A DNA stretch of 22,877 nt from the IMG/VR virus record IMGVR_UViG_3300042731_004366, positions 1 to 22,877 of that record. The stretch is one strand, 5' to 3'. Made by a program: the position numbers and the translations under genes. The stretch comes from a virus. Of the stretch, positions 1 through 19,999 are shown piece by piece; positions within the stretch are counted from its first letter, which is position 1; every line of letters begins with the position of its first letter. Below the pieces are notes generated by a model. It had not been told where the DNA came from. It searched no databases and saw only the letters and a list, made by a program, of their open reading frames with translations.

Positions 1-47
1 TTCCAGATATGCCGGGATGGGAGGGACATGAGTGGATGACATCCTGA
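1..47 (+). CDS. 3' end of an upstream gene, possibly a glycosyltransferase (partial)
   Basis: Only the last 14 residues are in the window, ending at a TGA at 45-47. The tail reads PDMPGWEGHEWMTS. The D-x-PGW signature resembles the C-terminus of the glycosyltransferase-like protein that ends at 3178 (DDILPGWGKTGRE), so the missing gene may be a relative of it. It overlaps the next gene's GTG start by 16 bases, as other junctions here do. The other two frames also stop within 39 bases, so the choice of frame rests only on this short similarity. Confidence 0.35.
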   Translation, partial: PDMPGWEGHEWMTS

Positions 48-1311: not shown

Positions 1312-1319
1312 GGGAGAAA

Positions 1320-2502: not shown

Positions 2503-3178
2503 AGCCTGCCTCTATTATACGTGCTCGACGCTCGATTCTCGCATTGCGCGGGCCTGTAGGGAGCAATTGGACAGAGCACGAGGAAGTATACCGCTGGTGA
2601 GCGTGTCTCGTTCGCCGCTTGGATACGGGCAGAAAACGATTGTCATTCATGGCGAGCGAGGCGTAGAGACAATGCACCGGCAGATTGTAGCCGGTCTAAA
2701 GGCAATTGAATCTGATGTTGTTTTTATGTGTGAGCATGATGTTTTGTATCACCCATCACATTTTGAATTTACACCGTCGCGCCAGGACGTGTTTTATTAC
2801 AATACGAATGTCTGGAAATTGCGATACGATGATGGACACGCAGTCTGGACGGACGATCTACAGCAGGTAAGCGGGCTGTGCGCCTGGCGTGAAATGTTGC
2901 TTGAATATTACTCGAAGCGATTGGTTAAATTGTGGGTCGACGGCTGGGACAGGCATTATGAGCCGGGGCCGAAAACGGGAAATTACCGAACCGAGAATTG
3001 GCAAAGTCCGCATTGCAATCTAGACATTCGGCATGGGCGCAATCAGACCAGAAGCAAGTGGAAGCCGTCCGAATTTCGCAATCAGCGCTATGCAAAAGGC
3101 TGGCGGGAAACGGACGACATTCTGCCGGGATGGGGCAAAACGGGGCGCGAGATAGTCGAGGACATACGATGCAACTAA
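2492..3178 (+). CDS. glycosyltransferase-like protein (GT-A type)
   Basis: Protein of 228 residues of a kind often found in phage glycosylation cassettes. It has a Rossmann-like first half and an acidic metal-binding segment VVFMCEHDVLYHPSHF (EHD at 81-83), matching the D-x-D region of GT-A enzymes. A tryptophan-, tyrosine- and arginine-rich second half has NLDIRHGRNQTRSKW and a terminal DDILPGW. The start is GTG 2492, preceded by GAGGAAAAGAG and overlapping the previous stop. Longer in-frame starts would extend far into the upstream gene. Donor sugar and acceptor cannot be told. Its C-terminal PGW motif is shared with the partial gene at the left edge of the window, suggesting that this phage carries several related copies. 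Confidence 0.65.
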   Translation: MATKACLYYTCSTLDSRIARACREQLDRARGSIPLVSVSRSPLGYGQKTIVIHGERGVETMHRQIVAGLKAIESDVVFMCEHDVLYHPSHFEFTPSRQDVFYYNTNVWKLRYDDGHAVWTDDLQQVSGLCAWREMLLEYYSKRLVKLWVDGWDRHYEPGPKTGNYRTENWQSPHCNLDIRHGRNQTRSKWKPSEFRNQRYAKGWRETDDILPGWGKTGREIVEDIRCN

Positions 3179-3423
3179 TTCAGGACGCAGATGGCACTGT
3201 CTGGAAATACCAGGGCGATACGCCGCCAGCGGGCTGCCGTTGGATGTCGCCAAACGTGGGCACAGTCAAAATCGCAGGGGAATGGCGAGGACCGACGGGT
3301 GAAAAGAGAGTGCCTTGTGAGATATACAGTCGCGTAGTTGGCTACATTCGCCCGGTGAGGCAGTGGAATGTCGGCAAGCGCCGCGAATGGGCGGATCGGG
3401 TGACATATAGGGTGGAATTGTGA
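3169..3423 (+). CDS. free-standing glycyl-radical domain-like protein (NrdD C-terminus-like)
   Basis: Protein of 84 residues. The second half, from Cys50 to the end (SRVVGYIRPVRQWNVGK, then EWADRVTY), closely resembles the C-terminal glycyl-radical segment of anaerobic class III ribonucleotide reductase (NrdD), in which the glycine of the R-V-x-GY motif carries the radical; here that is Gly58. The catalytic ten-stranded barrel of NrdD is absent, and of the paired cysteines that usually bind zinc before the motif only Cys50 and perhaps Cys23 remain. It could act as a spare radical domain, as GrcA/YfiD does for pyruvate formate-lyase, or be a remnant put to structural use. The start ATG 3169 overlaps the previous stop and has GAGGA upstream; the stop overlaps the next GTG start. 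Confidence 0.6.
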   Translation: MQLIQDADGTVWKYQGDTPPAGCRWMSPNVGTVKIAGEWRGPTGEKRVPCEIYSRVVGYIRPVRQWNVGKRREWADRVTYRVEL

Positions 3424-3644
3424 GCGAGGGAACAGCGGTTCATTTTTGGGCGCTTATTGCCAAGGTTCAAACAATGGCGGATGGCGGATTGAGAGTTTAT
3501 CTCGATCTGCCAGAGGACGCAGTTGAGACGGTGGCCGTCTTGATGGAATATAAACGGCACGGGGTTGTGGCCGATGTGAGAATACAGCCGAGACAGGAAG
3601 ATGACAGCGGAAAATCGGGAAAAACAAGTAAACCCAAGCTCTGA
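3420..3644 (+). CDS. small phage protein of unknown function
   Basis: Protein of 74 residues that I do not recognise. It starts with GTG at 3420 in a GTGA overlap with the preceding gene, so it is probably translationally coupled. The first 60 residues look like a small alpha/beta domain (HFWALIAKVQTMADGGLRVY, then LDLPEDAVETVAVLMEYKR). The tail is lysine- and serine-rich. Its last 44 bases overlap the start of the small terminase gene in another frame, an unusually long overlap for this region. It may assist packaging by position alone, but nothing in the sequence shows a function. Confidence 0.7.
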   Translation: MSEGTAVHFWALIAKVQTMADGGLRVYLDLPEDAVETVAVLMEYKRHGVVADVRIQPRQEDDSGKSGKTSKPKL

Positions 3645-4050
3645 GCAGTTAGAGACTATCTTGGCGCAGTTGACAACAGATCAGATGCGCTTTATCGTGG
3701 CGCGTCAAGACGTGGCTACCGATAAAGCCGCTGCTGAGCAAATTGGTGTATCGCCTGACACTATTTCGAGATGGAAACGCGAAGGCGTACCGATTGACGA
3801 GGCGGTGCGGTTGATGGCCTTTGATGGATTGGTGACAGCGCTGCATATCCGCAAGCGAAACCTAGCCAAGGCGATGGCCGTCAAGGTCGCAGGACTGAAT
3901 AGCGACGATGAGCGGTTGCGTCAAGGTGTAGCAACCGAGGTCATAGAATGGGAGTTGGGTAGGGCGACAAGTCGGCAGGAAGTTAGCGGCAAAGACGGCG
4001 GTCCGCTTGTCGTCAACTTTACCAGCAACGTAGACGATGGCAAACTATGA
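3601..4050 (+). CDS. terS: terminase small subunit
   Basis: DNA-recognition subunit of the packaging motor, 149 residues. A helix-turn-helix is clear at about 40-60 (DKAAAEQIGVSPDTISRWKR), followed by an alpha-helical stretch likely to form the oligomerisation region and a short tail before the stop. Small terminase subunits bind the cos or pac site and hand DNA to the large subunit, whose gene follows at once with a 14-base overlap. The start ATG 3601 lies inside the preceding small gene. I could not identify a cos or pac site. Confidence 0.82.
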   Translation: MTAENREKQVNPSSEQLETILAQLTTDQMRFIVARQDVATDKAAAEQIGVSPDTISRWKREGVPIDEAVRLMAFDGLVTALHIRKRNLAKAMAVKVAGLNSDDERLRQGVATEVIEWELGRATSRQEVSGKDGGPLVVNFTSNVDDGKL

Positions 4051-5380
4051 TGTTGATCTATCGTTCTATGGCGATAACAAGGCGGCGATAGAATGTCAAG
4101 CGCCAGAGGTGTTGCTCATTGGCCCGGCAGAAACGGGCAAAACCATCGCACTGTTGTGGAAATTACATCGGATCGCGTTCAAATATTCAAACGCAAGCCT
4201 GGTGATTTTGCGAAAAACTTTAACATCAACATACGGAACTGTGCTGCGAACGTTCCAGGAGAAAGTTGTTGGAGAAACAGGCCTGAAATTGTGCGTCGAT
4301 ACCTATGGCGGCGAAAAGGCGCAATGGTTCGACTATCCGAATGGATCACGAATCTGGGTCGCCGGCCTGGACAAATCGAGCCGTATTCTGTCAGCAGAGC
4401 ACGATATTATATACGTCAATCAGGCCGAAGAGCTGACAATGGACGACTGGGAGACGCTGACCACACGCACGACGGGCAGAGCGGGCCACATTCCACATCC
4501 GCAAACGATAGGCGATGCCAACCCAACTTATCCATCGCATTGGATGTACAAGCGAGAGACGATTCGGCGCTTCTACTCGTGGCACCGGGACAACCCGACG
4601 CTGTACGATGGACAGGAATGGACAAGGCAGGGCGAGGAGACGCTCCGCCGGCTGGCCAACTTAACGGGGCTGCGGCGGGTACGGCTATTCGAGGGCAAAG
4701 CAGCGCAGGCAGAGGGCGTTGTATATGAGGATTGGAACGAAGCGATCCACGTCATCGAGCCGTTTGCGATTCCCGACGATTGGCGGCGATTTCGCGTCGT
4801 CGATTTCGGATTCACAAATGCCTTTGTCTGCCAGTGGTGGGCAGTTGACCACGATGGACGCATGTATTTGTATCGGGAAATCTATCATACCAAGCGGCTT
4901 GTCGAGGACCACGCTCGGCAGATTGTGGCACTGAGCGAGGGCGAGCGAGTCGAGGCGACAGTATGCGACCACGACGCAGAGGATCGAGCAACATTGGAAC
5001 GGCATGGAGTGCCAACGATTGCGGCACAAAAAGCGGTGACGGTGGGCATTCAGGCAGTACAGGCGCGGCTGAGAGTGCAAAAGGACGACAAGCCGAGGCT
5101 GTATGTATTCAGGGGCGCGCTGGTCGAACTCGATCCAGAGTTGGATACAGAACATAAACCGACCTGTACGAAGGATGAATTTGCCGGCTATATCTGGGAA
5201 AAGACGCCCGATGGCAAGCCGAACAAAGAGACGCCGCATAAGGCCGACGATCACGGAATGGATGCTGTACGATACGGGGTGATGTATCTGGACAATGAGA
5301 CGCAGAGCAGCGGCGAGACCGTACACGCCGATCCAGAAATATATCGAGTCGAACACAAGAGCAGATTGTGGGATAGGTGA
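4037..5380 (+). CDS. terL: terminase large subunit (packaging ATPase/nuclease)
   Basis: Motor protein of 447 residues that pumps DNA into the prohead and cuts it. Visible parts: Walker A GPAETGKT at 29-36; an adenine/coupling-type segment VILRKTLTSTYGTVLRTF; Walker B IIYVNQAEE at about 124-132, with the catalytic Glu pair; and a C-terminal RNase H-like nuclease with acidic residues at RVVDFGFT (Asp256), CDHDAED (Asp311) and ADDHGMDAVRYG (404-409). Length is normal for the family. The start ATG 4037 overlaps the small subunit gene by 14 bases. Protein and gene order are those of a standard siphovirus packaging module. Confidence 0.95.
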   Translation: MANYDVDLSFYGDNKAAIECQAPEVLLIGPAETGKTIALLWKLHRIAFKYSNASLVILRKTLTSTYGTVLRTFQEKVVGETGLKLCVDTYGGEKAQWFDYPNGSRIWVAGLDKSSRILSAEHDIIYVNQAEELTMDDWETLTTRTTGRAGHIPHPQTIGDANPTYPSHWMYKRETIRRFYSWHRDNPTLYDGQEWTRQGEETLRRLANLTGLRRVRLFEGKAAQAEGVVYEDWNEAIHVIEPFAIPDDWRRFRVVDFGFTNAFVCQWWAVDHDGRMYLYREIYHTKRLVEDHARQIVALSEGERVEATVCDHDAEDRATLERHGVPTIAAQKAVTVGIQAVQARLRVQKDDKPRLYVFRGALVELDPELDTEHKPTCTKDEFAGYIWEKTPDGKPNKETPHKADDHGMDAVRYGVMYLDNETQSSGETVHADPEIYRVEHKSRLWDR

Positions 5381-5386
5381 GGGAAA

Positions 5387-5836
5387 ATGGTATATCTAGA
5401 GTTCGACAATGGGCGCGTATACCTAAAAGACGAAGACGGCAGGCGGTTGTGGGAAAATATACCTGCTGGCTGGTGGAAGTGTAGATATTGTGGTGGGCTG
5501 GTACAGGATAGTGAATCAAAATGTCCAAACTGTTACGGCGGGCGCAAACCCGAATATCCCAAGCTGCCCCGCAATTTGAAAACAAGGCGGGGGATACTTG
5601 AGTTCACATACGAAATGGTATATGGAATGAAGCCGGGAACCCGTCTGCCATTACCAGATGAGACAATCGTTTATGGCGATGGGTGGTTCATTCATTTTGC
5701 AACCGATACCTATATGCTCAAAGTGATGAGTCCAACGTTACCTTATCAGGTGCGAGAGGGCGAGCAACTATACCGATACGCGCCCATTTGGGAATATGAC
5801 GAAACAGGTATGGCAACGTTCAAAGGCTGGACATAA
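5387..5836 (+). CDS. zinc-ribbon protein of unknown function
   Basis: Protein of 149 residues between the large terminase and portal genes. A treble-cysteine zinc ribbon is visible at about 32-51 (CRYCGGLVQDSESKCPNC). The rest is rich in aromatic residues and predicted beta strands (GDGWFIHFATDTYMLKVMSP). GAGGGA precedes ATG 5387, and the stop overlaps the portal start (TAATG). I do not recognise a family. Its place between TerL and portal is where small packaging or head accessory proteins often sit, but this is only positional evidence. Confidence 0.75.
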   Translation: MVYLEFDNGRVYLKDEDGRRLWENIPAGWWKCRYCGGLVQDSESKCPNCYGGRKPEYPKLPRNLKTRRGILEFTYEMVYGMKPGTRLPLPDETIVYGDGWFIHFATDTYMLKVMSPTLPYQVREGEQLYRYAPIWEYDETGMATFKGWT

Positions 5837-7503
5837 TGACAAAACGAAGACCAATCAGATCGCGCATACTCGAATGGCTAGACGCTGCCCCACGCAACGC
5901 AGTGGAAAGCGCTTGGACTCGTGGCTATGAATCGGGCTATGAGGATGGCAATGACGAGCCGACGCAAGGCACCGTTCGTTCACAGGGCTACACGAGGGCG
6001 ACGGCAGCCGGCAGTGCCATCAAGGAGCTGGGCGACCTAGACCACGACAAATTACTCAATGTGGTGTGGGCCATTTTCCTATCGAATCCGGTCGCCAAGC
6101 GCTATTTGCAAATCAAGCGCGATTACATTTTAGGTCGGGGCGTACAGCCGACGACAGAGGACGAGGCGCTGCAGGAATTGCTCGATGCCTTTTGGATTGA
6201 CAATGACCTCGACCGGCGATTGAGAAAATTCGTCCTGCAGTGGCGGCTATTTGGCGAGCAGTGTTATCCCGTATTTGTCCGCGAGTCGGACGGGCGTGTA
6301 CGGCTCGGCTATTTTGATCCGACGCAAATTGAGGATGTAATATTGCATCCTGAAAACGCACTTGAAAAATGGGCCGTCGTCATCAAGCGCCAGAACGCGG
6401 CAAAAGTCAAGAATTGGCAATTTGTGCGGCGCGACAAGCAGGTGTATCGCATCGTCCGCAGGGCTGAGCCGGTAGTGATGGATGATGATACTGTTGCCAC
6501 CGTAGAGCATGAGGGTCGGCTTGTCACCTGGGAGCAAACGGCGCTTGAACCCTGGGAAGAGAAAATGCTGGCCGACCACGGCCTAAAAGAATACACCGGC
6601 ACGTGCTTTTATTTTACCGTCAACGATGTAGCCAACCAGAAACGAGGCTATAGCGATTTGTTGCAGGTTGTGGATTGGCTCGACCAACTCGACAACACGC
6701 TTTTTTCTCTGGCCGACCGGGAGGAATTGGCGGCGCTGTTCTCCTGGGATGTGACGTTAAAAGATGCAGATGAGCCGCGCGTCAAAGAGCGGGCGCGACA
6801 AATTCGCAAAAATCCGCCGAAACGCGGCAGTTTCCGCGTTCACAATGACAAAGAAGCGTGGGAAATGAAAATCGCCGATCTCAAGCAGATTGGCACGGTC
6901 CAGACGGAAAAAGCTTTGCTCATTCATTCGCTGGGCGGGTTGGGCATGCCGCATCACTGGTATGGGTATGGCGACGATACCAATCGGGCTACGGCACATG
7001 AGCAAAATCAACCATCCTGGCGCACAATGGAACACGATCAGGACGAGACAAAGGATGCCATTTTGTTCATACTCCAATTTGTGCGCGATCAGGCACTCAT
7101 TGCGCGTATCTGGTCCGGTGAGGCGGATGTAGATTTGCAAATGCCCGAGATGTCTGGCAGTGACATCAAATTGCTATCCGAGTCATCCGGGCAATTGGCT
7201 GTCGGTCTGGCGACAGCAAAAAAAGAGGGCTGGATCACGACCGACACGGCGGCAGAGGTATGGGCGACATTGATGGCTGAGTTGGGTGTGACGTATGTGC
7301 CATCTGAGGAAGTCGAGTTGGCAAAAGCCGAACAGGATGCAAAGCCGCCGCCCCTGCCACCGCCATTCATGGGGCAGCAGACAGATAGCGGAACAGAGCC
7401 AGATATAGGTGAGGAGAACGAACAGGAATATTTAGAGGAGGTGATGGCAGCGGCAAGCGCTGCCCCCTTTCCGAGAAGCGATCCCTGGGGCCGTTATCCG
7501 TAG
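5836..7503 (+). CDS. portal protein
   Basis: Protein of 555 residues forming the dodecameric ring at the capsid vertex through which DNA enters and leaves. The central part has portal hallmarks: LLNVVWAIFLSNPVAKRYLQ, an RDYILGRG segment, FVLQWRLFGEQCYPVFVRE, GYFDPTQIEDV, and the late helical stem with DLLQVVDWLDQLDN, GMPHHWYGYG and RATAHEQN. The C-terminus is proline-rich (PPPLPPPF near residue 505), then acidic. It follows the terminase and precedes the MuF gene, as usual. The last 20 codons (7444-7503) overlap, in another frame, sequence that also looks coding for the next protein; a +1 frameshift joining the two is possible. Confidence 0.9.
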   Translation: MTKRRPIRSRILEWLDAAPRNAVESAWTRGYESGYEDGNDEPTQGTVRSQGYTRATAAGSAIKELGDLDHDKLLNVVWAIFLSNPVAKRYLQIKRDYILGRGVQPTTEDEALQELLDAFWIDNDLDRRLRKFVLQWRLFGEQCYPVFVRESDGRVRLGYFDPTQIEDVILHPENALEKWAVVIKRQNAAKVKNWQFVRRDKQVYRIVRRAEPVVMDDDTVATVEHEGRLVTWEQTALEPWEEKMLADHGLKEYTGTCFYFTVNDVANQKRGYSDLLQVVDWLDQLDNTLFSLADREELAALFSWDVTLKDADEPRVKERARQIRKNPPKRGSFRVHNDKEAWEMKIADLKQIGTVQTEKALLIHSLGGLGMPHHWYGYGDDTNRATAHEQNQPSWRTMEHDQDETKDAILFILQFVRDQALIARIWSGEADVDLQMPEMSGSDIKLLSESSGQLAVGLATAKKEGWITTDTAAEVWATLMAELGVTYVPSEEVELAKAEQDAKPPPLPPPFMGQQTDSGTEPDIGEENEQEYLEEVMAAASAAPFPRSDPWGRYP

Positions 7504-7561
7504 AAACCTGGACGGTGAACCCGATCCGCAAGGTGGCGAAAAGGATCGGTCTGAGTATGAA

Positions 7562-8857
7562 TTGCAGCAGGCACTTTTACAATTTTGGCGTGGACAGGTC
7601 GAGCGCATCAAGGACAGGCTGAGGCCGGGCATACCACGAAATCGGAGAGAGGCAAAGGCGCCGCAGAGCCGGCTTGATGCCTCGTTCTGGTCGGATGAAA
7701 ACCGCGAGTTGCTGGCCGTTCTCATTCCAGCTCTATCTGATGCGTCACAGGATGGCGCAGAGTGGATGGTAAATTGGGTAGACAGTACGCTGGGCATCGG
7801 CATCGACTGGACGCTCATCAATGCCGATGCAGTAGAATGGGCGCGAAAATATGCTGCCGAGTTGGTGCGAGGTATCAATAGCACGACGCGAGATCAGATC
7901 AAGCGTCACGTTTCGGCTTGGTTGGATACGCCGGGCCGCACGATGGGCGATCTGTTTGCAGAACTAGAGAGTCTGCCGGGATTCAATGAATCACGCGCAC
8001 AAATGATCGCGGTGACGGAAATCACGCGGGCCTATGCTGAAGGAAACAAATTGAGCGCACAAAAATATGAGGACGAAGGACTATTTACCTGGAAGCGAGT
8101 CTGGCAGACGAACAACGATGACAAAGTGTGTCCGCTATGCGCGCCATTGCACGGCACAACAGCAAAGGGAACAGATGGCGAATATGAGGACGGCACACAG
8201 CATCCGCCACGACATCCGCGTTGTCGATGTTGGGAGAATTGGGAGCCGGACATTTCGCGGGTAGCATTTACCGTCGCTAGAGGTGCAACAGATGCAGAGA
8301 TAGAAGCAACAGGAAATTTATTCGTCTTTAACGAAGGATCGGACTGGACGCCCGACGAGAGAGAAATTGCAGATCGTGCGCTGGAAAAATTAAGCGCACT
8401 GAATCCGTTCAGGGATATAACGGAACTAGTACGAGTAACTGGACAAGAAGAATTTGTAGCGTATTCGTTGGGAGATGGTCGGGTTATGGTGGGGGATGCC
8501 TTTTTCGACGAGTTTTATCAGCGCATACTAAACAAATCCTATGGGGGGCGACCTGGTGTATTAGCTCACGAGCTAGGGCATGAATTAGCTGAGCAGATGA
8601 TACCAGAGCAGCGAGCCGCTTATGCAGATATTTTTGCTAGGAATAAGAACTGGTGGCGCGATAATTACGATAAGGTTGGCATCAAGACCGACTATTCGAA
8701 CATCGACGAGGTAACATTGAGGTACTGGCCATCGTATCAGGCCATGAACGGATGGCAGGAGGATTTGGCAGAGAGCTATCGAGTTTATTTGAGGGCTGGC
8801 GGCGAGATGGGGGATCTTGGTGAGAGGCGTGAGCTAATTCAGGAGTTATTGCGGTGA
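7562..8857 (+). CDS. MuF/SPP1 gp7-like head protein with C-terminal HELGH metallopeptidase
   Basis: At least 431 residues. The N-terminal part is a MuF (SPP1 gp7-type) minor head protein that sits near the portal: AVTEITRAYAEGNKLSAQKY, then CPLCAPLHG and PPRHPRCRCW, the family's Cys/His signature. From about residue 240 a different domain follows, with a zincin motif AHELGHELAE (His336, Glu337, His340) and WQEDLAESYRVYL (Glu404), a likely third zinc ligand. MuF proteins with C-terminal toxin domains are known from temperate phages; this looks like that architecture with a peptidase. The C-terminal DNA is visibly AT-richer (many TTA, GGA, ATA codons), suggesting it was acquired. The only ordinary start in frame is TTG 7562, without a good ribosome site, yet the frame is open and protein-like back to 7445. 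Confidence 0.85.
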   Translation: MQQALLQFWRGQVERIKDRLRPGIPRNRREAKAPQSRLDASFWSDENRELLAVLIPALSDASQDGAEWMVNWVDSTLGIGIDWTLINADAVEWARKYAAELVRGINSTTRDQIKRHVSAWLDTPGRTMGDLFAELESLPGFNESRAQMIAVTEITRAYAEGNKLSAQKYEDEGLFTWKRVWQTNNDDKVCPLCAPLHGTTAKGTDGEYEDGTQHPPRHPRCRCWENWEPDISRVAFTVARGATDAEIEATGNLFVFNEGSDWTPDEREIADRALEKLSALNPFRDITELVRVTGQEEFVAYSLGDGRVMVGDAFFDEFYQRILNKSYGGRPGVLAHELGHELAEQMIPEQRAAYADIFARNKNWWRDNYDKVGIKTDYSNIDEVTLRYWPSYQAMNGWQEDLAESYRVYLRAGGEMGDLGERRELIQELLR

Positions 8858-9120
8858 TTTCATCGCGGCTAGTGGATATACAGAGTCAATTAGAAACTGA
8901 TCCTGGCCGGTGGTTTCCGGACGGAAAGACAAATCGACGGGCAGCAAATCAAGAGTTAGGGCGAATGGTAGGACAAGCCCTGTCGGTGTTTGACGAATGG
9001 GCCTTGTATGCTATCGCGATGTATGGGCGTTATATTGTCGCCAATTCACAAGACGAAACCGGGACAGCCATCACGATCAGCCAGTGGATAAAGTCAGTCG
9101 AGCAAGGGGCACATGTTTAG
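8854..9120 (+). CDS. small coupled protein, candidate partner or immunity protein of the MuF-peptidase
   Basis: Protein of 88 residues that starts with GTG 8854 inside the stop of the preceding gene (GTGA), so it is coupled to the MuF-peptidase. Mostly helical by eye, with a WFPDGKTNRRAANQELGRMV stretch and aromatic helices (FDEWALYAIAMYGRYIV). I do not recognise a family. Its DNA shares the AT-richer look of the peptidase domain. In polymorphic toxin systems the gene right after the toxin domain usually encodes immunity; that reading is inference from position and size. It overlaps the 3' end of the opposite-strand gene by 27 bases. Confidence 0.7.
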   Translation: MISSRLVDIQSQLETDPGRWFPDGKTNRRAANQELGRMVGQALSVFDEWALYAIAMYGRYIVANSQDETGTAITISQWIKSVEQGAHV

Positions 9121-9312
9121 CAAAGCCCCAAAGTCACCACAGAAGACGGTTTGTCCACTAGGGGCAAATTCCAAGTTCGGGTGATCGGCGGGGTACGCCC
9201 AAGTGTTGAAATTACCCCTTGATTGTTCGAATGCGGCAATAACGGCGCGAGTCGGGGACGTGAAATAAGTAATCCATTGTCCCGTGTTGAGATTAAAAAC
9301 GTGTGTTTTCAT
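9094..9312 (-). CDS. opposite-strand small protein, moron-like
   Basis: The only gene on the minus strand, 72 residues, converging on the gene ending at 9120. The start is ATG at 9312-9310, with AAAGG five bases upstream; a longer form from 9348 would skip that site. The protein begins MKTHVFNLNTGQWITYF and has FEQSRGNFNTW and VFCGDFGALL segments; I do not recognise a function. It has its own sigma-70 promoter (9437-9465) and a structured leader of about 120 bases, so it is transcribed apart from the late operon. A gene of opposite orientation with its own promoter between head genes is the pattern of a phage moron, usually expressed in the lysogen. Confidence 0.7.
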   Translation of the reverse strand: MKTHVFNLNTGQWITYFTSPTRAVIAAFEQSRGNFNTWAYPADHPNLEFAPSGQTVFCGDFGALLNMCPLLD

Positions 9313-9329
9313 AGGAACCTTTCTAATAC

Positions 9330-9431
9330 AAAAACCCACCCGCCTCAACCAGCGCTACTGTCTAGGCAACGCAGGAGACGGGCAGGTCAAAAAACAAACA
9401 AAAAGCACGGTATTGCCGCATTGCCTAGACA
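9330..9431 (-). promoter_or_regulatory. attenuator-like leader with two competing stems
   Basis: In the minus-strand transcript, arm A (9431-9418, TGTCTAGGCAATGC) can pair with arm A' (9372-9359, GCGTTGCCTAGACA) over 14 positions, one of them G-U. Arm B (9387-9375, ACCTGCCCGTCTC) can pair with arm B' (9346-9334, GAGGCGGGTGGGT) over 13 positions including three G-U, followed by TTTTT. B:B' is therefore a rho-independent-type terminator upstream of the gene start. The order A-B-A'-B' makes the two stems mutually exclusive unless they form a pseudoknot, which is the logic of an attenuator or small riboregulator. The trigger is unknown. T-rich runs also follow arm A. Confidence 0.55.
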
Positions 9432-9436
9432 GATAT

Positions 9437-9465
9437 AGTATATCATTTTTGGGATGATTTGTCAA
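9437..9465 (-). promoter_or_regulatory. sigma-70 promoter for the opposite-strand gene
   Basis: Reading the minus strand, a perfect -35 box TTGACA (9465-9460) and a -10 box TATACT (9442-9437) are separated by exactly 17 bases. Transcription would start near 9430, at the first base of the inverted repeat described below. The -35 box overlaps the ATG of the plus-strand gene at 9465, so the two could interfere. A weaker plus-strand box pair (TTGCCG at 9413, TATAGT at 9434, spacing 15) overlaps it and might serve the gp10-like gene. Confidence 0.8.
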
Positions 9466-9941
9466 TGACCGCTGAATTAGAAATCAAAGGGCTAGATGAG
9501 GTCCAGCAATATCTTGCCAAATTCCCGGCACAGATTAACGCTGACCTGCAATCGGCAATGAAGGGTGCCGCCGCTTTGGTCAAATCTAGGCTTAACCAAT
9601 ATCCTCCGTTATCTGAGGCCAACACGCCGCCAGGGCCAAACGGCTATTCGTGGTATGAACGGGGCTACGGCGTGCAAACGGTAACGGGCAAAGGCTATCC
9701 TGTTTCTAAAGTGTTAGGGCGCTCGTGGACAAGCGTCGTCAAAGGCGAGGGAATGGACGTAAAAGGCATTATCGGCACGCCCGTTTCGTATGCGCCTTTT
9801 GTACACGACGAAAGGCGCCAGGCTAGTTTCCATCGACGGCGAGGATGGCAGACAGCACAGGCAGTATTGGACAAAAACGCGCCGGTTATACAAGAGTTTT
9901 TTGACAAGATGATTGAGCGAATCATTGCCAGGGTGTCTTGA
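9465..9941 (+). CDS. HK97 gp10-like neck/tail completion protein
   Basis: Protein of 158 residues resembling the HK97 gp10 family, which joins the head-tail interface. Supporting features: an N-terminal helix-strand start (ELEIKGLDEVQQYLAKFPAQ), the A-L-V-K-SRL helix, and the late SYAPFVHDERRQASFHRRRGW followed by a long helix ending at IIARVS, the typical arrangement of an aromatic Y-A-x-FVH motif and C-terminal helix. I chose ATG 9465 over TTG 9459; GGGA lies upstream. Its position before the capsid gene is unusual, since gp10-like genes normally follow the capsid and adaptor genes; the other connector genes here (17682, 18566) do follow it. Confidence 0.72.
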   Translation: MTAELEIKGLDEVQQYLAKFPAQINADLQSAMKGAAALVKSRLNQYPPLSEANTPPGPNGYSWYERGYGVQTVTGKGYPVSKVLGRSWTSVVKGEGMDVKGIIGTPVSYAPFVHDERRQASFHRRRGWQTAQAVLDKNAPVIQEFFDKMIERIIARVS

Positions 9942-9951
9942 GGGAGACAGT

Positions 9952-10281
9952 ATGAAATGGTTTAGATGTCCAAAATGTGGATTTGTGGATACGGCAAAAA
10001 CGCAGATCGAAATTACAGCCTGCTTGCGCCTTGAGGACATACAGAAAGAGCCATACGGCGCGCTTATATATGATGATTATGAGTATATTCAGAATCCGCG
10101 CGCTTTGCAATGTGTCATTTGCGGATCAACCGTTGCTGTAGTAGAGAAACCGTGTCATCACGACTGGGGCCGCATTGAATGGGGCTATGGCGGCAATAAG
10201 GGCCAGGCGCGTCAACAATGCCAGCGATGCGGAGAGTATCGTTATGGCAAGGGCAAAAGCCCAGCGTGGGAGAGCGCATGA
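9952..10281 (+). CDS. double zinc-ribbon protein of unknown function
   Basis: Protein of 109 residues. Two metal-binding units are visible: CPKC (6-9) with CVIC (54-57), and Cys68-His-His with CQRC (90-93). The arrangement suggests a small adaptor or nucleic-acid-binding protein, but I recognise no family. AGGGAGA precedes ATG 9952, and the stop overlaps the next start (ATGA). It begins a run of four small genes between the gp10-like and capsid genes. Zinc ribbons also occur in the proteins at 1543 and 5387. Confidence 0.75.
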   Translation: MKWFRCPKCGFVDTAKTQIEITACLRLEDIQKEPYGALIYDDYEYIQNPRALQCVICGSTVAVVEKPCHHDWGRIEWGYGGNKGQARQQCQRCGEYRYGKGKSPAWESA

Positions 10282-10442
10282 CATCCGATCTTTCACCCGC
10301 AGCCATCAAATTGGCTCGCCGCCTGCAGGCATTACCAGCAGGTCGATTCTATTTGGCAATTTTGTACAAAGCCGCTAAAATATGGTTGCTGGGCATTTTG
10401 ACACCGAGGGGGATCAAAGCAGAGAGGATACAGGGGGAGTGA
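10278..10442 (+). CDS. small protein of unknown function
   Basis: Protein of 54 residues starting at ATG 10278 in an ATGA overlap with the previous gene, with GGGAGAG upstream. An N-terminal helix (SPAAIKLARRLQALPAGRF) is followed by a hydrophobic stretch (YLAILYKAAKIWLLGIL) that could be a membrane segment or buried beta strands. A GTGA overlap couples it to the next gene. No family recognised. Confidence 0.6.
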   Translation: MTSDLSPAAIKLARRLQALPAGRFYLAILYKAAKIWLLGILTPRGIKAERIQGE

Positions 10443-10645
10443 AATTATCTGGAGAACAATTAGACGCATTAGAGGATTTATTGTCAAGGCGCATGGATAT
10501 GCAGTATTGGCTATTTGCTATGTGGCAAAATCGGGATAAGAGATCAGAAATCGCCGAACAGTTTTATGAAACGTGGACGAAGCACCGAAGGGAGTTTGAG
10601 TCGTGGTGGTTGCTTGTTAAAAACGTTTTTGGGGGAACGCAATGA
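10439..10645 (+). CDS. small helical protein of unknown function
   Basis: Protein of 68 residues beginning at GTG 10439, with GGGGGA just upstream, overlapping the previous stop. It looks entirely alpha-helical and is rich in Trp, Arg and Glu (LDALEDLLSRRMDMQYWLF, FYETWTKHRREFESWW). Possibly a small accessory or chaperone protein, but nothing specific is visible. The stop overlaps the start of the Tat-signal gene (ATGA). Confidence 0.62.
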   Translation: MKLSGEQLDALEDLLSRRMDMQYWLFAMWQNRDKRSEIAEQFYETWTKHRREFESWWLLVKNVFGGTQ

Positions 10646-11055
10646 AACTATCCAGACGTGATATGCTAAAAGGATTCGGCGCATTCATTGCCGGTCTGTT
10701 GATGGGCGCGGCAAAGGCTGAGATGAAGCAAGACGAGCCAAAGATGCAAGAGGCTGATGACATTATTGATGAGGGGTGGGATTATAACAAATGGGTCACG
10801 CCTCTCGATTCCTATCGTGATTTCGGGCACACTTGGGCTTGTGCATCATGGTATGCGCGGATACATACGCGCGCGCCAACTGTTGACGACTGGCCAGTCG
10901 TGTCGGGGGTGACTATAATGTGGTTTGCAGAAAATCCTATTCCCGAGGGATGGGTAGAATCAGGCAAAAACGGCACGCCTAGGGTGCTAAATTACATTAT
11001 AGGCGGTATTGATATGGTACAAGAACCCGACGTTATTTTCATTACGAAAGTCTAG
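10642..11055 (+). CDS. protein with twin-arginine (Tat) signal peptide
   Basis: Protein of 137 residues. The N-terminus carries SRRDMLK (residues 4-10), matching the Tat consensus S/T-RR-x-F-L-K, then a moderately hydrophobic stretch (GFGAFIAGLLMGAAKA) with an A-x-A cleavage site before Glu27. It should therefore be folded in the cytoplasm and exported by the Tat pathway. The mature part is Trp- and Asp-rich (DEGWDYNKW, HTWACASWYAR, NPIPEGWVESG) and of unknown function. Tat-exported proteins are rare among phage structural genes; this could be a lysogenic-conversion protein or a borrowed cell-surface protein. It overlaps the preceding gene by four bases and is followed by the leader of the capsid gene. 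Confidence 0.72.
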   Translation: MKLSRRDMLKGFGAFIAGLLMGAAKAEMKQDEPKMQEADDIIDEGWDYNKWVTPLDSYRDFGHTWACASWYARIHTRAPTVDDWPVVSGVTIMWFAENPIPEGWVESGKNGTPRVLNYIIGGIDMVQEPDVIFITKV

Positions 11056-11077
11056 TTAGGCTAACAATTACATATCC

Positions 11078-11123
11078 GCCCGCACACCAGCGGGCTAGAG
11101 CACCAGGAACGGGCAATCGCCCG
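11078..11123 (+). promoter_or_regulatory. two short hairpins in the capsid leader
   Basis: Two GC-rich hairpins stand side by side in the 146-base gap before the capsid gene. The first pairs GCCCGC (11078-11083) with GCGGGC (11090-11095) around a six-base loop; the second pairs CGGGC (11110-11114) with GCCCG (11119-11123) around a four-base loop. Neither has a T-run. With the larger hairpin downstream they form a compact structured leader. Confidence 0.5.
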
Positions 11124-11128
11124 ATAAC

Positions 11129-11189
11129 ACGGGGCTAGATTTTCAGAGTGATGTTAAATCGTCGCCGGAATCTAGCCCCGTTTTGTTTT
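11129..11189 (+). terminator. terminator-like hairpin abutting the capsid ribosome binding site
   Basis: A perfect 13-base-pair stem, ACGGGGCTAGATT (11129-11141) with AATCTAGCCCCGT (11169-11181), closes a 27-base loop and is followed directly by TTTTGTTTT (11181-11189). This has the shape of a rho-independent terminator. The capsid ribosome site GGAGG begins at 11190, so no promoter fits between. Full termination would shut off the capsid, so it must be partial, antiterminated or used for RNA processing. Confidence 0.65.
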
Positions 11190-11201
11190 GGAGGTAACAA
11201 A

Positions 11202-13574
11202 ATGCCAGTACCACAACCGAACGAATCAGAGCAGGATTTTGTTTCTCGTTGTACCCCCATCGTTATGGAGGACGGCACGGCGGAGGACAACGAACAGGCT
11301 ACCGCTGTTTGTCATTCAATGTATAGGCAGGCACAGGAAGCGGTCAGAATTGACGTTGCCGTTACGCCGCGGCTCATTGAGGGCGCGCAGTTTACAGGGA
11401 AAGCCTGGGACGTAACCATTATCGGCGCCGAGGATGGCCAGCCGCCGCTTGTCGTGGACGGGCGAGAGTTCGTCGTCAGCAAAAACGGGAGACTGTACGC
11501 CGTAGACGCATTGCGCGCATCCGCGTCTATGTGGGAAGGGGTCAAAGTCTATGACAACCATCTCACCGATGCAGAATTTGAGCAGCGCGGCGGGATGCGC
11601 TCTGTCAAAGACGAATGGATTGGCACACTGCTCAACGTGCAATGGAACGAGGGTCGGCGCCAGTTGCGTGCTGAATTTCGCGTCGTAGACGATGCGCTGG
11701 CGGCCAAACTCAAAAGCGCCCTAGACGAGGGCGTGCTAGGATCAATCGGGTTGTCAATCGACGCCTTTCCGATTGTCGGAAACGCTGTCTTGCACGAGGG
11801 CAGACAGTGGCCGGTGATCGAAGGCTTCGAGAAAATATTATCAGTGGATTTAGTTGCAGAGCCAGCAGCAGGGGGACGGTTCAATCGAATTATCGCGGCG
11901 AAGCAACCAAGAGAAAAAACACAAGGAGCAATGCAAATGGCTGAGAACGAAACCAATGAGAACGTTCTGACCAAGAACGATGTGGCAGAAATGATCTCGG
12001 CAGCCTTGGCGGAAGCCCTCGCCGCGAAGGACGCCGAGAATGAGCCGGTCGAAGAGGCCGAACCGGAACCGGAGCAAGCGCCGGTTGAAGAGGCCGAAGA
12101 CGAGCCAGAAGACGAGGCTGACGACGTGACGGAAAAAGTCGAAGCCGAACTCGAAAAATTGGCAACAGAGCGGGCGCAATTGATGGTTGACCGCAAGCTG
12201 ATGGCTGCTCGACTGAACGAAAAACACGAGGCCATTATTAGATCTGCCGTCAATGGGCGCAAAGTCACAGAGGCATTTGTAGATGGCTTGATCAAGCAAG
12301 CCAAAGAGGCCCAAGCTGGTGCCGATCCATCGGGGCGCGTATCGGGTGCCGGCAATGCACCGTCGCCACAAATCGTGCTTGACGAGCACGAGAAAGCCGC
12401 CGCTGAGTTTTTGCGGATGGTTGCGGGTAACACCCGTTTTCGTGGTCTGGAAAACATCGAGGACGAAGACGTTGCCCACCGCCTGCATGAGAACATCGGC
12501 TACAAGGCCTGGGTCAAAGACGGCAAACCGCGCGACGGGTATGGTATGCGCCGTCTGTCCGACTGGGTTTACCAGTACTGGGGCGATCCGCTGGATGCCT
12601 CCCGCTTTTATGAGGCATCGACGACCAGTTCAATCTCGTCAATCGTCAAATCGGCACTCAACGTGATGCTGGCTGCCAACTATGCCACGCGGCACAAATG
12701 GTGGCTGCCGATTGTCCGAGAGGAAGAGATTGACACCATCGACGCGCCGACGCTGGTCCGCGCTTATGGGCTGGATATGCTTGACGTGGTGAACGAAGGC
12801 AATGCCTACACCGAGATGGGATGGGTAGATGAGGAAGAAACCGCCGCTTTCGTGAAGCGCGGGAACTACGTGGGCGTGACGCTCGAAGCGATGCTACGCG
12901 ACAAAGTGCAAGTCATTCGCACGCTGCCCGAGCGACTGGCAACTTCGTGGTACAACTCGATTTCATACCGCGTCAACCAGGTATTCGACGGCAACAGCGC
13001 CGCAGGACCAGTGTTGAGCGACACGGGCGCGTTGTTCAATAGCACTGCCGTTACCACGGGAGGCGGACATGCTAACCTGCTGACCGCCGCGCTAACCTAC
13101 GACAACTATACCGCCTCGCGCACGGCTATGATGAAACAGACCGATCAGTACAGCGGCGCGGGCACGGAAAAAGGTGTTCGTATGTTGATCCGCCCGAAGT
13201 TTATTGTCGTTCCGGTTGACCTGGAAGGTACGGCCCAAGCGATCTTTGGGACCGAGATGAAGCCCGGCAGCGCCAACAATGACATCAACCCCTACTATAA
13301 CGAGTGCCAAGTTGTCGTCGATCCCCACAGCACCGATACGAACAACTGGGCGCTGGTGGCAGATCCGGTAGAGTTCCCGGCGATTTGGGTGCTTTACCTG
13401 AGAGGCAATCGCGTGCCAGAGCTGTACAGTGCGGGTGATGAATCTGCAGGCGCGATGTTCACCAATGACACGCTGCGCTGGAAGGTTCGTCAGTTGACGT
13501 TCCGATTCAGCTCGACGTATGATTGCAGTCCTGTGTCGGATTTCCGCCCACTTCACAAGAACAACGTGAGCTAG
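11202..13574 (+). CDS. prohead protease-scaffold-major capsid fusion protein
   Basis: Polyprotein of 790 residues. Residues 1-45 are the short Cys-containing segment often seen before phage proteases. About 50-235 is a prohead serine protease: YDNH (His120), GSIGLSIDAF (candidate Ser185 or Ser181) and the closing ILSVDLVAEPAAGG. About 246-400 is acidic and coiled-coil (runs of E, A and P), the scaffold. The rest, to 790, is an HK97-fold major capsid protein: IVKSALNVMLAANYA, a Mu gpT-like GYVGVTLEAMLRDK-type region (here NYVGVTLEAMLRDK), and a TLRWKVRQLTFRFSST end. The start ATG 11202 has GGAGG seven bases upstream. An internal in-frame ribosome site could make scaffold-capsid alone. The capsid is presumably released by the protease, as in other phages. 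Confidence 0.88.
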   Translation: MPVPQPNESEQDFVSRCTPIVMEDGTAEDNEQATAVCHSMYRQAQEAVRIDVAVTPRLIEGAQFTGKAWDVTIIGAEDGQPPLVVDGREFVVSKNGRLYAVDALRASASMWEGVKVYDNHLTDAEFEQRGGMRSVKDEWIGTLLNVQWNEGRRQLRAEFRVVDDALAAKLKSALDEGVLGSIGLSIDAFPIVGNAVLHEGRQWPVIEGFEKILSVDLVAEPAAGGRFNRIIAAKQPREKTQGAMQMAENETNENVLTKNDVAEMISAALAEALAAKDAENEPVEEAEPEPEQAPVEEAEDEPEDEADDVTEKVEAELEKLATERAQLMVDRKLMAARLNEKHEAIIRSAVNGRKVTEAFVDGLIKQAKEAQAGADPSGRVSGAGNAPSPQIVLDEHEKAAAEFLRMVAGNTRFRGLENIEDEDVAHRLHENIGYKAWVKDGKPRDGYGMRRLSDWVYQYWGDPLDASRFYEASTTSSISSIVKSALNVMLAANYATRHKWWLPIVREEEIDTIDAPTLVRAYGLDMLDVVNEGNAYTEMGWVDEEETAAFVKRGNYVGVTLEAMLRDKVQVIRTLPERLATSWYNSISYRVNQVFDGNSAAGPVLSDTGALFNSTAVTTGGGHANLLTAALTYDNYTASRTAMMKQTDQYSGAGTEKGVRMLIRPKFIVVPVDLEGTAQAIFGTEMKPGSANNDINPYYNECQVVVDPHSTDTNNWALVADPVEFPAIWVLYLRGNRVPELYSAGDESAGAMFTNDTLRWKVRQLTFRFSSTYDCSPVSDFRPLHKNNVS
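11923..11939 (+). promoter_or_regulatory. internal ribosome site and start within the capsid fusion
   Basis: AAGGAG (11923-11928) lies eight bases before ATG 11937 and two bases before ATG 11931, both in frame. The 11937 start gives a 545-residue product that begins MAENETNENV exactly where the protease domain ends and the acidic scaffold begins. This is the known strategy of lambda C/Nu3, in which a nested start supplies more scaffold or capsid than protease. Confidence 0.65.
11937..13574 (+). CDS. nested scaffold-major capsid protein from the internal start
   Basis: Predicted alternative product of the capsid gene, 545 residues, from ATG 11937 to the shared stop. It would contain the acidic scaffold and the HK97-fold capsid but not the protease. 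Capsid shells need hundreds of capsid copies and few protease copies, so a separate and stronger start here makes sense. The evidence is the well-spaced AAGGAG and the exact coincidence with the domain boundary; that it is used is inference. Confidence 0.55.
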   Translation: MAENETNENVLTKNDVAEMISAALAEALAAKDAENEPVEEAEPEPEQAPVEEAEDEPEDEADDVTEKVEAELEKLATERAQLMVDRKLMAARLNEKHEAIIRSAVNGRKVTEAFVDGLIKQAKEAQAGADPSGRVSGAGNAPSPQIVLDEHEKAAAEFLRMVAGNTRFRGLENIEDEDVAHRLHENIGYKAWVKDGKPRDGYGMRRLSDWVYQYWGDPLDASRFYEASTTSSISSIVKSALNVMLAANYATRHKWWLPIVREEEIDTIDAPTLVRAYGLDMLDVVNEGNAYTEMGWVDEEETAAFVKRGNYVGVTLEAMLRDKVQVIRTLPERLATSWYNSISYRVNQVFDGNSAAGPVLSDTGALFNSTAVTTGGGHANLLTAALTYDNYTASRTAMMKQTDQYSGAGTEKGVRMLIRPKFIVVPVDLEGTAQAIFGTEMKPGSANNDINPYYNECQVVVDPHSTDTNNWALVADPVEFPAIWVLYLRGNRVPELYSAGDESAGAMFTNDTLRWKVRQLTFRFSSTYDCSPVSDFRPLHKNNVS

Positions 13575-13580
13575 TTTATC

Positions 13581-13600
13581 AGGGGCAGACCATCGCCCCT
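13581..13600 (+). promoter_or_regulatory. hairpin between capsid and fibre-like gene
   Basis: AGGGGC (13581-13586) pairs with GCCCCT (13595-13600) around an eight-base loop, directly before AAGGAG of the next gene. There is no T-run, so it is more likely an mRNA stability or processing element than a terminator. Confidence 0.45.
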
Positions 13601-13614
13601 TAAGGAGACATAAC

Positions 13615-14916
13615 ATGAACGAGAATCAGAAAAAGTGGCTGGGGTATGCGATTGTCGTGGCTGCGATCATTCTGTCGAATGTGTTGTTCGGCTACGTGAT
13701 TCCGTATCCCTCGCCGCCTGTGGAAATGCCATTCGGCGCACAGGGCTATACCAATTTCACCGGCTTGATTGTCGAAGCGCCAACATATCAGGCAACCAAC
13801 GAGCCTGCAATGCAGGTGGACAATGACGGCGTGTCCAACGTGTTCGAGGTTTTGGACGGCGGCACACCCGCGCTGGTTGTGGACTCAGACGGCAATACCA
13901 CCATCAGCGGCACGTGCAGCGGGTGCTCGGTCAACTCCGCTTCCGGTCTGCGCATCACCCAACCCACGGCAGCAACGACGGCGACGCCTGCACTGGCGGT
14001 GAATAGCCTTGCGGCCGGGGCAAACTTGCTGGAGGTCCAAGACGCGAGCACGCCCGTGTTTGTGGTAGAGAATGGCGGGGATCATACTATCGCCGGCAAT
14101 GTGGCTATAGCACAACCAACGGCGGCGGCAACGGCAACGCCGATGGTTTATGCGAATACCGCGGCCGACGCGCCGGATCTGCTCGTTGTCGCAAAAGACG
14201 CCACGCCAGTCGTCTCTGTCCACAATGACGGAACGCTGGACGTTGAAGGTGATGTCGATGTCGGCGATACGTTGAACGTTGACGGCGATATCGATCTGGA
14301 CGGCGACGGGTTCGACGTGAACATCACTGCAGGTTTCTCGATTGATGGTGACGCCGCGAGTAACATCAATATCAACACCGGCGATCTGACGATTGAGAAC
14401 GAGGACAAATCGATCATTATCAAAGGCGACGAGGCGGCGGCGGACGCGATCTATCTGGATGCCAATGACGCAGCAGGCACCGGGGTTTCTATCGTAACCG
14501 GCGCGTCGGCGGGGCTGTCCATTGATGGTGGGCTGACCGACATCGGCGGTGGTACATACACCGTTGCGGACGGGGATAACGATTTGGGCGTCGAGGGTGA
14601 CATTGAAACCAATGGGAACCTGGTGTTGTCCAGTGCCAATTATCCAGTTGAGCACGGCAGCGCCGGGCGCGAGATCTATTTTGGTGTGACCAGCGCGTTT
14701 ACCGGCACGACAACGGTATTGAGCACGACGACAGGAATCGAGAATGTAGTGGCAGCTCTGTGCCAGGTGGATGACCCGGATGACGATTCTGGAGATGCGT
14801 TTTTGTGCATCGGCTCGCATACTGACGGTGATGTAACGCTGACGGCGCTGGATGACTCTGGCGATGAATCGACCGAGGTCGATACGACAGTCTACTACAT
14901 TATCTTGGGCTACTAG
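13615..14916 (+). CDS. repeat-rich fibre-like protein with N-terminal membrane anchor
   Basis: Protein of 433 residues. A single hydrophobic helix (WLGYAIVVAAIILSNVLFGY, residues 8-27) follows a short charged start, so it looks like a signal anchor. Three repeats of about 50 residues follow (near 50-195), each with an A-T-x-x-PA-x-x-V start, a LLEV-x-D-x-x-TPV-x-VV middle and a G-x-x-TI-x-G end, as in beta-structured fibre shafts. Next comes an Asp/Gly-rich beta-helix-like part (DVEGDVDVGDTLNVDGDID) that may bind calcium, then a compact C-terminal domain. A trimeric fibre or surface protein is likely. A membrane anchor is odd in a virion protein; it may instead be displayed on the host or be cut during assembly. 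AAGGAG precedes ATG 13615. Confidence 0.7.
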   Translation: MNENQKKWLGYAIVVAAIILSNVLFGYVIPYPSPPVEMPFGAQGYTNFTGLIVEAPTYQATNEPAMQVDNDGVSNVFEVLDGGTPALVVDSDGNTTISGTCSGCSVNSASGLRITQPTAATTATPALAVNSLAAGANLLEVQDASTPVFVVENGGDHTIAGNVAIAQPTAAATATPMVYANTAADAPDLLVVAKDATPVVSVHNDGTLDVEGDVDVGDTLNVDGDIDLDGDGFDVNITAGFSIDGDAASNININTGDLTIENEDKSIIIKGDEAAADAIYLDANDAAGTGVSIVTGASAGLSIDGGLTDIGGGTYTVADGDNDLGVEGDIETNGNLVLSSANYPVEHGSAGREIYFGVTSAFTGTTTVLSTTTGIENVVAALCQVDDPDDDSGDAFLCIGSHTDGDVTLTALDDSGDESTEVDTTVYYIILGY

Positions 14917-14926
14917 GAGGCGAATA

Positions 14927-15292
14927 ATGGATAACTATGTTGTATTAGGCTTTACGCTCGTCAATCCAGCCGACGCCTCCGCCCTGGGCGATAACGATTT
15001 CTACCAGAACGTGCCGTGCGATATGACTATCATTTACGTCTGCGCCGCATCTGATACCGATGATGCAGACCTCACAGTAGACATCAACGACGATGGAACG
15101 GGCGCAATTGAGGCTATCTCGTGCGCGGACAAAGAAGATCCCGGCGAGTGGAAATCGACGCACGTTGGCGGGACTAACGATCCTGTTCGAGTTGCAGCCG
15201 GCAGCGAACTGTCGTTTGACGTAAATGACGCGGATGCAGCAACAACCATACATCTCACCATTTGGGCGCTCGCGTCCGAGGTGTGGGCATAA
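14927..15292 (+). CDS. decoration-like protein, copy 1 of a tandem pair
   Basis: Protein of 121 residues, all-beta in appearance, with YQNVPCDMTIIYVCAASDTD and DKEDPGEWKSTHVGGTNDP segments. AGGAGG lies six bases before ATG 14927. It is about three-quarters identical, by hand alignment, to the protein encoded immediately downstream. Small paired beta proteins right after a capsid gene are commonly capsid decoration or head-fibre subunits; that role is inferred from position and size. Two conserved cysteines (PCDMTIIYVC) could bridge or bind metal. Confidence 0.75.
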   Translation: MDNYVVLGFTLVNPADASALGDNDFYQNVPCDMTIIYVCAASDTDDADLTVDINDDGTGAIEAISCADKEDPGEWKSTHVGGTNDPVRVAAGSELSFDVNDADAATTIHLTIWALASEVWA

Positions 15293-15303
15293 GGAGAATT
15301 GAC

Positions 15304-15666
15304 ATGAAACCAGTAGTTTTGAATTTTACGATGGTCAACCCTGCCGAGGGCGGGGCGCTGGGCGCGCTCGATTTCTATCAGAACGTGCCATGCGATCTGA
15401 CCATTGTCTATGTGTGTGCCGCAGCCGACACGGATGACACCGGCCTGACTGTCGATATCAATGACGATGGAAGCGGGGTCATCACTGGCATCGACGCGGC
15501 AGACAAAGAAGATCCGGGCGAGTGGAAAAGTACTCACGTCGGTGGGACCAATGATCCCGTTGTGGTTGCGGCTGGCAGTGAGCTGTCGTTTGATGCCAAC
15601 AATGCGGCCAATGCGACGACTGTTCACATCTCGATCTGGGCGCTCATCTCCGAGGTCTGGGCATAG
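15304..15666 (+). CDS. decoration-like protein, copy 2 of a tandem pair
   Basis: Protein of 120 residues and a paralogue of the one at 14927. The segments YQNVPCDLTIVYVCAAADTD, DKEDPGEWKSTHVGGTND and the end SEVWA are shared nearly unchanged, while the N-terminus and some loops differ. AAGGAG precedes ATG 15304. Both copies have intact frames and starts, so both are probably made and may occupy different sites or bear different modifications. The third-position changes suggest the duplication is not recent. Confidence 0.75.
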   Translation: MKPVVLNFTMVNPAEGGALGALDFYQNVPCDLTIVYVCAAADTDDTGLTVDINDDGSGVITGIDAADKEDPGEWKSTHVGGTNDPVVVAAGSELSFDANNAANATTVHISIWALISEVWA

Positions 15667-15675
15667 TGATAGAAT

Positions 15676-15703
15676 GAGGCGGGGCGACACATTACCCCGC
15701 CTC
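15676..15703 (+). promoter_or_regulatory. strong hairpin after the duplicated genes
   Basis: A perfect nine-base-pair stem, GAGGCGGGG (15676-15684) with CCCCGCCTC (15695-15703), closes a ten-base loop. It sits in the 54-base gap before ATG 15721 and lacks a following T-run, so simple termination is unlikely; it may protect the 3' end of a processed mRNA or slow RNA polymerase. Confidence 0.5.
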
Positions 15704-15720
15704 CTGAAAGGCAATTGAAT

Positions 15721-15972
15721 ATGGACGAAAAACTGATCAAACGGGCGCGTTTGTACCTGGGCGATGACGGCGAAATGCTGGGCTGTCGCGTCGATGAACA
15801 ATGGAACGTGCTGCGCGTGGTTATAGATTACGGGGTCAAGGGGACAAAGGTGTTTAATATCCCACTGGCCGACCTGCCAGAACTGCCAAAACCCAAGCCG
15901 AAGCCGAGAGCCAAGCGGACGCGAACGGTACGCAAGGCCGCGCCCAAGCCGGCAGAGGAGGGGGGCGAATGA
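15721..15972 (+). CDS. small protein with basic Lys/Pro tail
   Basis: Protein of 83 residues. The first 57 form a small beta-rich domain (LGDDGEMLGCRVDEQWNVLR, then VVIDYGVKGTKVFNIPLADL). The tail is a Lys-Pro-Arg repeat (PKPKPKPRAKRTRTVRKAAP) ending in acidic residues. Such tails can bind DNA or extend from a virion. I chose ATG 15721 over TTG 15715. It overlaps the next gene by four bases. No family recognised. Confidence 0.65.
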   Translation: MDEKLIKRARLYLGDDGEMLGCRVDEQWNVLRVVIDYGVKGTKVFNIPLADLPELPKPKPKPRAKRTRTVRKAAPKPAEEGGE

Positions 15973-16466: not shown

Positions 16467-16476
16467 GCGGTGACGG

Positions 16477-17178: not shown

Positions 17179-17247
17179 AGGCAGGCGCCTATTTACGGAA
17201 GCGGATTGATATCTGTCTCATCGGAGTAAATCTAGTGGTGACATAAT

Positions 17248-19254: not shown

Positions 19255-19262
19255 GGGGAAAT

Positions 19263-19811: not shown

Positions 19812-19812
19812 A

Positions 19813-19995: not shown

Positions 19996-19999
19996 TACA

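Follow-up and report, generated by a model that had tools for sequence, protein, structure and literature searches.

Phages often carry free-standing homing endonucleases and TnpB nucleases, and how most of them are restrained is little known outside T4. The controls described for such genes in T4 comprise late promoters, autorepression, hairpins over the ribosome-binding site and a weak terminator (PMC2988022). The immunity of P4, with its CI RNA and the seqA and seqC elements, has also been described (PMC4825925). Transcription attenuators, both trp-type and those on riboswitch platforms, rely on mutually exclusive folds that share a strand, with a terminator and T-run ahead of the gene, and the leader discussed here has the same logic. 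It lies in a viral DNA stretch of 22,877 nucleotides (IMG/VR record IMGVR_UViG_3300042731_004366), hereafter the window, which over the stretch compared is identical to part of a 59,039-bp IMG/VR contig. We consider it likely that the leader belongs to a conserved promoter and two-state attenuator serving mobile and accessory phage genes, mostly antisense within structural operons; termination itself is inferred.

On the minus strand of the window a sigma-70 promoter is followed by four leader arms in the order A-B-A'-B', a T-run, a ribosome-binding site and a 72-aa gene, P0001. The promoter (9437..9465) consists of TTGACA (9465-9460), a 17 bp spacer and TATACT (9442-9437), with a TG preceding the -10 element. 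It ranks best of 22 promoter-like sites in a sigma-70 scan of positions 1-20000. With an extended -10 and 11/12 consensus positions, the epithet 'perfect' given to it in the initial annotation holds in part and is slightly too strong. Its -35 element overlaps the start codon (ATG 9465) of a divergent tail-completion gene, and the predicted transcript start, for which no transcript data exist, is G9430, inside arm A.

Arm A (9416..9432) combines the core TGTCTAGGCA (9431-9422) with the extension ATGCGG. The spacer behind it (9389..9415) contains a weak hairpin that competes for this extension and a U-rich tract, CTTTTTGTTTG, common to several family members. Arm B (CCTGCCCGTCTC, 9375..9386) forms the 5' strand of the terminator stem, and arm A' (CTGCGTTGCCTAGACAG, 9358..9374) pairs with A to give the antiterminator, with 15-17 pairs including G-U (9432-9416 with 9374-9358). 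In the alternative fold the 5' part of A' enters an apical stem, P2, of 6-7 pairs (9372-9366 with 9358-9352; its 3' strand, TAGCGC plus a neighbour, at 9352..9358), and CCTAGACA moves into the loop, where A' is displayed. Arm B' (GAGGCGGGTGGG, 9346-9335) forms 12 pairs with B (9386-9375) and runs directly into TTTTT (9334-9330), so that 9330..9346 makes up the 3' part of a predicted intrinsic terminator. The ribosome-binding site AAAGG (9322-9318) lies outside B', downstream of the T-run, and the start codon is ATG 9312. The claimed four-arm leader ahead of a reverse-strand gene thus holds by sequence, folding and recurrence. The arms of the proposed 14-pair hairpin starting at +1 are real, with 15-17 pairs counted; the 13-pair terminator holds in part, with 12 pairs and the T-run confirmed. 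No trp-type leader peptide or aptamer was identified in the window leader; a candidate peptide between A and A' (ATG 9420 to a TAG in A') has no usable ribosome-binding site.

The structure of the window leader is by itself no strong argument. A 12-bp perfect inverted repeat with a loop of up to 100 is present in 22/200 shuffled windows (11%), and folding of the full leader beats 196/200 shuffles (z -2.3), that is, moderately. For these reasons the case rests on comparison with other phages. An A/A' pair alone is not rare; its combination with the other elements and its recurrence in other phages exceed chance.

Viral contigs were searched with the pattern TGTCTAGGCA-N38..68-TGCCTAGACA, without any promoter term. 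This A-arm search returned 14 contigs, this phage included. In 12 of them TATANT stands exactly 5 nt upstream of the A core, and all 12 continue with B/B', usually a T-run, and then an ORF. A second scan added the fragment L121 and also L102, whose spacing narrowly misses the pattern. A relaxed scan with three positions of each arm freed recovered little A-arm variation and one true new member, L126, whose arms TGTCAAGGCA/TGCCTTGACA form a compensatory A/A' pair. Every intact member, from whichever scan, has TATANT at this same 5 nt distance from A. Altogether the cassette occurs in 15 viral records beyond the window (members: window, L070, L075/L079/L080/L121, L071, L072/L076/L102, L073, L074, L077/L078/L082 and L126). 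Some types are near-identical copies, and with the window, L070 and L075 counted as one type there are seven independent types, or about 7 independent cases. Members were recruited by the A core, and its conservation is partly a selection effect. No viral record holds more than one A/A' pair. Two candidates were rejected as chance matches: L081, with arms and no promoter, and the genome contig L003, where the match falls on a leuC-like gene. The copy at L076:1768-1855 looks like a relic leader: its -10 is altered or damaged, and the endonuclease gene is missing or has been replaced.

A generic scan of 1.2 Mb of loci for this layout with different arms gave background-type matches only, and a host search restricted to the phylum of Dethiosulfatarculus (198 genomes) found no match to the leader. 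At gathering score the leaders have no match in Rfam, where only miRNA and snoRNA noise appeared far below the cut-off. On the contig of one member, an int-alpA RNA (RF02996) does score above gathering at L070:3240-3305.

Evidence for two competing folds comes from both folding and covariation. The arms A and A' are constrained in sequence, whereas B and B' diverge fully and yet still pair. When the RNA is truncated 8 nt beyond A', A:A' is the predicted fold in 10/10 sequences; at full length, the minimum-free-energy structure is the terminator in 7/10. When each state is imposed as a constraint, their energies differ by no more than 4.3 kcal/mol in 9/10; the exception is L126, in which A:A' is strongly favoured (9.2 kcal/mol). 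Just 5' of A' lies a strand that can pair in register either with the A extension (P=2/5040) or with the apical strand of the terminator after A' (P=1/5040), as judged by in-register run lengths against all 5040 re-assignments among the 7 independent types; these two pairings are mutually exclusive. In 8/9 cases the best partner of B is the B' of the same leader; in the ninth it is that of the nearest sister. Among the window, L070 and L075, 28/28 pairs stay standard, with three B:B' pairs changed on both sides. Since both states have pairing support, the data favour a switch rather than a single hairpin. The initial annotation had held that a lack of conservation or of compensatory changes in the arms among relatives would refute it; conservation was found, in unrelated phages, as were compensatory changes (A/A' in L126, and B/B' re-paired).

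Two of the features that define a transcription attenuator were examined here. Mutually exclusive helices sharing a strand are established here computationally. That one helix be an intrinsic terminator with a U-run holds for the window and for most members, in which 4-7 T follow B' immediately or at a short distance, but not for L071, which has no proper T-run; for this second feature termination is inferred. The attenuator or riboregulator logic proposed initially is accordingly supported as a design, with termination itself and the signal remaining inferences. One point weakens the competition argument: A:A' and B:B' may coexist as a pseudoknot, which is topologically possible, and A:A' would then not block B:B'.

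The genes that follow the leader are TnpB (two types), GIY-YIG, LAGLIDADG and zinc-finger/Vsr-like endonucleases and two unknown small proteins. Pfam assigns TnpB in the L077 set, a T5orf172/MUG113 GIY-YIG protein in L073, a LAGLIDADG_1 protein with a homing-endonuclease-associated repeat in L074 and a treble-clef zinc-finger protein in L072/L102. The last has relatives in 952 phage records, some annotated as endonuclease, and a C-terminus that we take to be Vsr-like. We also take the gene in L071 to be TnpB, from its sequence, and that of L126 has a zinc-finger-like start before running off the contig. The 115-126 aa protein of L070/L075 belongs to no Pfam family. Cysteine-containing proteins of this size stand under the leader after MuF head genes (L070:11410-11757, L079:2300-2680) and might conceivably be immunity or accessory genes of MuF proteins. 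In intact copies an ORF starts closely after the leader, often with a ribosome-binding site.

This association is modular. L077 and L078/L082 share exactly the segment from -81 to +1268 around the arm, with 99.9% identity, and their flanks differ; the TnpB gene thus travels with its promoter and leader. The match between L072 and L076 extends to +118, where the leader ends, and goes no further, which shows that leader and ORF are separable. In the window and in L070 the leader occupies the same place, after the MuF gene and before the tail-completion gene, with different ORFs; in L079 it likewise follows the MuF gene. In the window, L070, L079, L071, L072, L102 and L074 the unit runs antisense to the genes on both sides; in L073 it is co-oriented with them. 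Anatomy, recurrence, pairing support and modular association with mobile genes are demonstrated. The setting named initially, one small gene inside the head operon, fails as a specific feature, as the leader precedes homing-endonuclease-type genes, TnpB and small orphans.

In the window the unit is the single reverse-strand one between the MuF-type head gene (Phage_Mu_F, 7562-8857) with its adjoining 88-aa neighbour and the tail-completion gene (phrog_5, from 9465). The orphan P0001 (9094..9312, minus strand) has no family in Pfam, NCBIfam or PHROGs. Its own family of about 70 aa, with members in six further viral contigs and on a plasmid of Geoalkalibacter (L061-L066, L058), shares the motif GN[WF]NTWxY...CGD, in fuller form NLxTG...AVVAAYEQxRGNWNTWxY...CGD. 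The predicted fold is beta-beta-alpha-beta-beta-beta (pLDDT 81), for which a fold search returned no solved structure, only weak resemblance to phage proteins that are themselves uncharacterised. As no such leader is present in the six other viral members of the family, it is not tied to this protein. The portal relatives L006/L007 lack both P0001 and the neighbouring tail-completion gene. No terminator-like site was found after 9094, downstream of P0001, and a transcript of this gene would therefore continue into the MuF gene in antisense orientation.

Several further observations concern these loci. The forward 88-aa gene (8854-9120) and P0001 overlap tail to tail by 27 bases. At 11129-11190 of the window a 13-bp inverted repeat (ACGGGGCTAGATT...AATCTAGCCCCGT) is followed by TTTGTTTT and also contains CTAG; it forms a second terminator-like leader directly before the ribosome-binding site of the protease/major-capsid gene (ATG about 11202). 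Glycosyltransferase-like frames, judged from translations only, lie upstream of the packaging genes (32-2502). In L068 a 907-aa tail-region protein contains a long serine-proline repeat (SVSPSVSP..., 5922-6450).

In the mechanism we propose, the transcript would start within A, and A:A' (10-17 bp) would form first once A' is made, before B' exists. As A:A' would tie up the strand from which the upper part of the terminator is built, the nascent RNA would start out antiterminated; this order of synthesis is the inferred ground for read-through by default. If A were kept from A', or if B' emerged and the balance tipped, B:B' and the apical stem would form, and B:B' beside the T-run would end transcription about 100 nt from the start. 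The terminated short RNA would then show A' (CCUAGACA) in its apical loop. In L071, with its weak T-run, and in L073/L074, where the Shine-Dalgarno sequence lies in B', the hairpin may act on translation instead. In effect the cassette would keep mobile and accessory genes within structural operons low or conditional. Termination, the folding order in the cell and a trans signal are inferences, and there are no transcript data behind the start or the 3' end.

What would keep A from A' can only be guessed. One possibility is that the leader RNA released by termination does so, its loop binding A of newly made transcripts in a P4-like manner. Because the exposed CCUAGACA complements the 5' end of new transcripts, such RNA feedback is the simplest self-contained candidate. 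The strict A core exceeds what pairing needs and may point to a recognising factor, as yet unidentified, that could be a DNA-binding protein. Ribosomal RNA was rejected as partner of the core: E. coli rRNA contains no exact counterpart, and the match it does give is at chance level. A bolder and speculative reading is that unrelated selfish nucleases (TnpB, GIY-YIG, LAGLIDADG, Vsr-like) and orphans share one cassette family whose terminated RNA captures new 5' ends through the CCUAGACA loop. If true, expression would be high in a naive cell and shut down once the leader RNA of a resident copy fills it, amounting to RNA-based self-limitation and cross-control between different elements.

Other explanations fit less well. 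That a chance inverted repeat merely lies beside a chance promoter is all but excluded: the frequency of the 12-bp repeat in shuffled windows speaks for it, but 15 other viral records share the identical architecture with covarying arms, and this recurrence refutes it. The suggestion, already raised in the initial annotation, that the A arms are repressor operators, at +1 and about +60, beside a separate and constitutive terminator is disfavoured, though not excluded. In its favour, A is a near-palindrome (TGYCTAGRCA), strictly conserved and fixed over the start site. Against it, each phage record has a single A/A' pair where several sites would be expected, and the sole further TGCCTAGACA in the 59-kb phage sits inside a coding frame. 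The A-A' distances (57, 60, 63, 67, 68, 78, 79) are not multiples of the helical turn, and DNA looping was rejected for this lack of phasing. Moreover, covariation of B/B', the extension and the apical stem is not predicted by operators, and L126 breaks the CTAG centre while complementarity is kept.

It also appears unlikely that a pseudoknot or hairpin controls only translation or RNA stability, as in the leaders of T4 homing endonucleases. Leaders of this kind are documented in T4 (PMC2988022), a G-rich B' strand stands just before the ATG in L073 and L074, and L071 has no T-run; but the ribosome-binding site of the window lies past the T-run, outside B', and most members have 4-7 T at B'. 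Translational control may nevertheless apply to L073, L074 and L071. Nor do we favour a mainly small-RNA gene whose 100-nt terminated RNA acts in trans, with read-through incidental. The defined start, the terminator and the exposed conserved loop CCUAGACA would suit it, but an ORF start lies close behind in intact copies, often with a ribosome-binding site, and the unit moves with TnpB. The promoter with its two-state attenuator thus remains our preferred reading.

The leader appears undescribed as a control device for such genes, as far as a non-exhaustive literature search can tell. The initial claim that no attenuator is described in this setting stands in that Rfam has no match; known parallels exist, and the form is new. 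Phage morons are likewise extra genes with their own promoter inside a structural operon; they differ from the present unit, which has a regulated leader, reverse orientation and no terminator found after the gene. P4 immunity also involves premature termination in a phage leader, with a short loop-complementary leader RNA as suggested trans factor; here, in contrast, complementarity lies within one transcript, trans action is not shown and Rfam gives no match. Compared with trp-type and riboswitch attenuators, the 5' arm is fixed in sequence at +1 and the genes are mobile nucleases and phage orphans. The 10-nt core offers a sequence handle by which uncultured phages can be searched for new mobile genes and orphan accessory genes; a single leader in front of many unrelated nucleases would suggest that they have a control principle and a trans factor in common. 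The T4 leaders of I-TevI, segB and mobE (PMC2988022) are alike in having their own promoter and an RNA structure that limits a mobile endonuclease, in mobE with a weak terminator. Since the known T4 controls include both hairpins over the ribosome-binding site and this weak terminator, an attenuator is plausible here, although new in form. A Shine-Dalgarno sequence enclosed in a hairpin, as in T4, is absent from the window leader and possible in L073/L074. Whereas the T4 leaders sequester the ribosome-binding site and are specific to their gene, here one conserved promoter and leader stands before several nuclease families.
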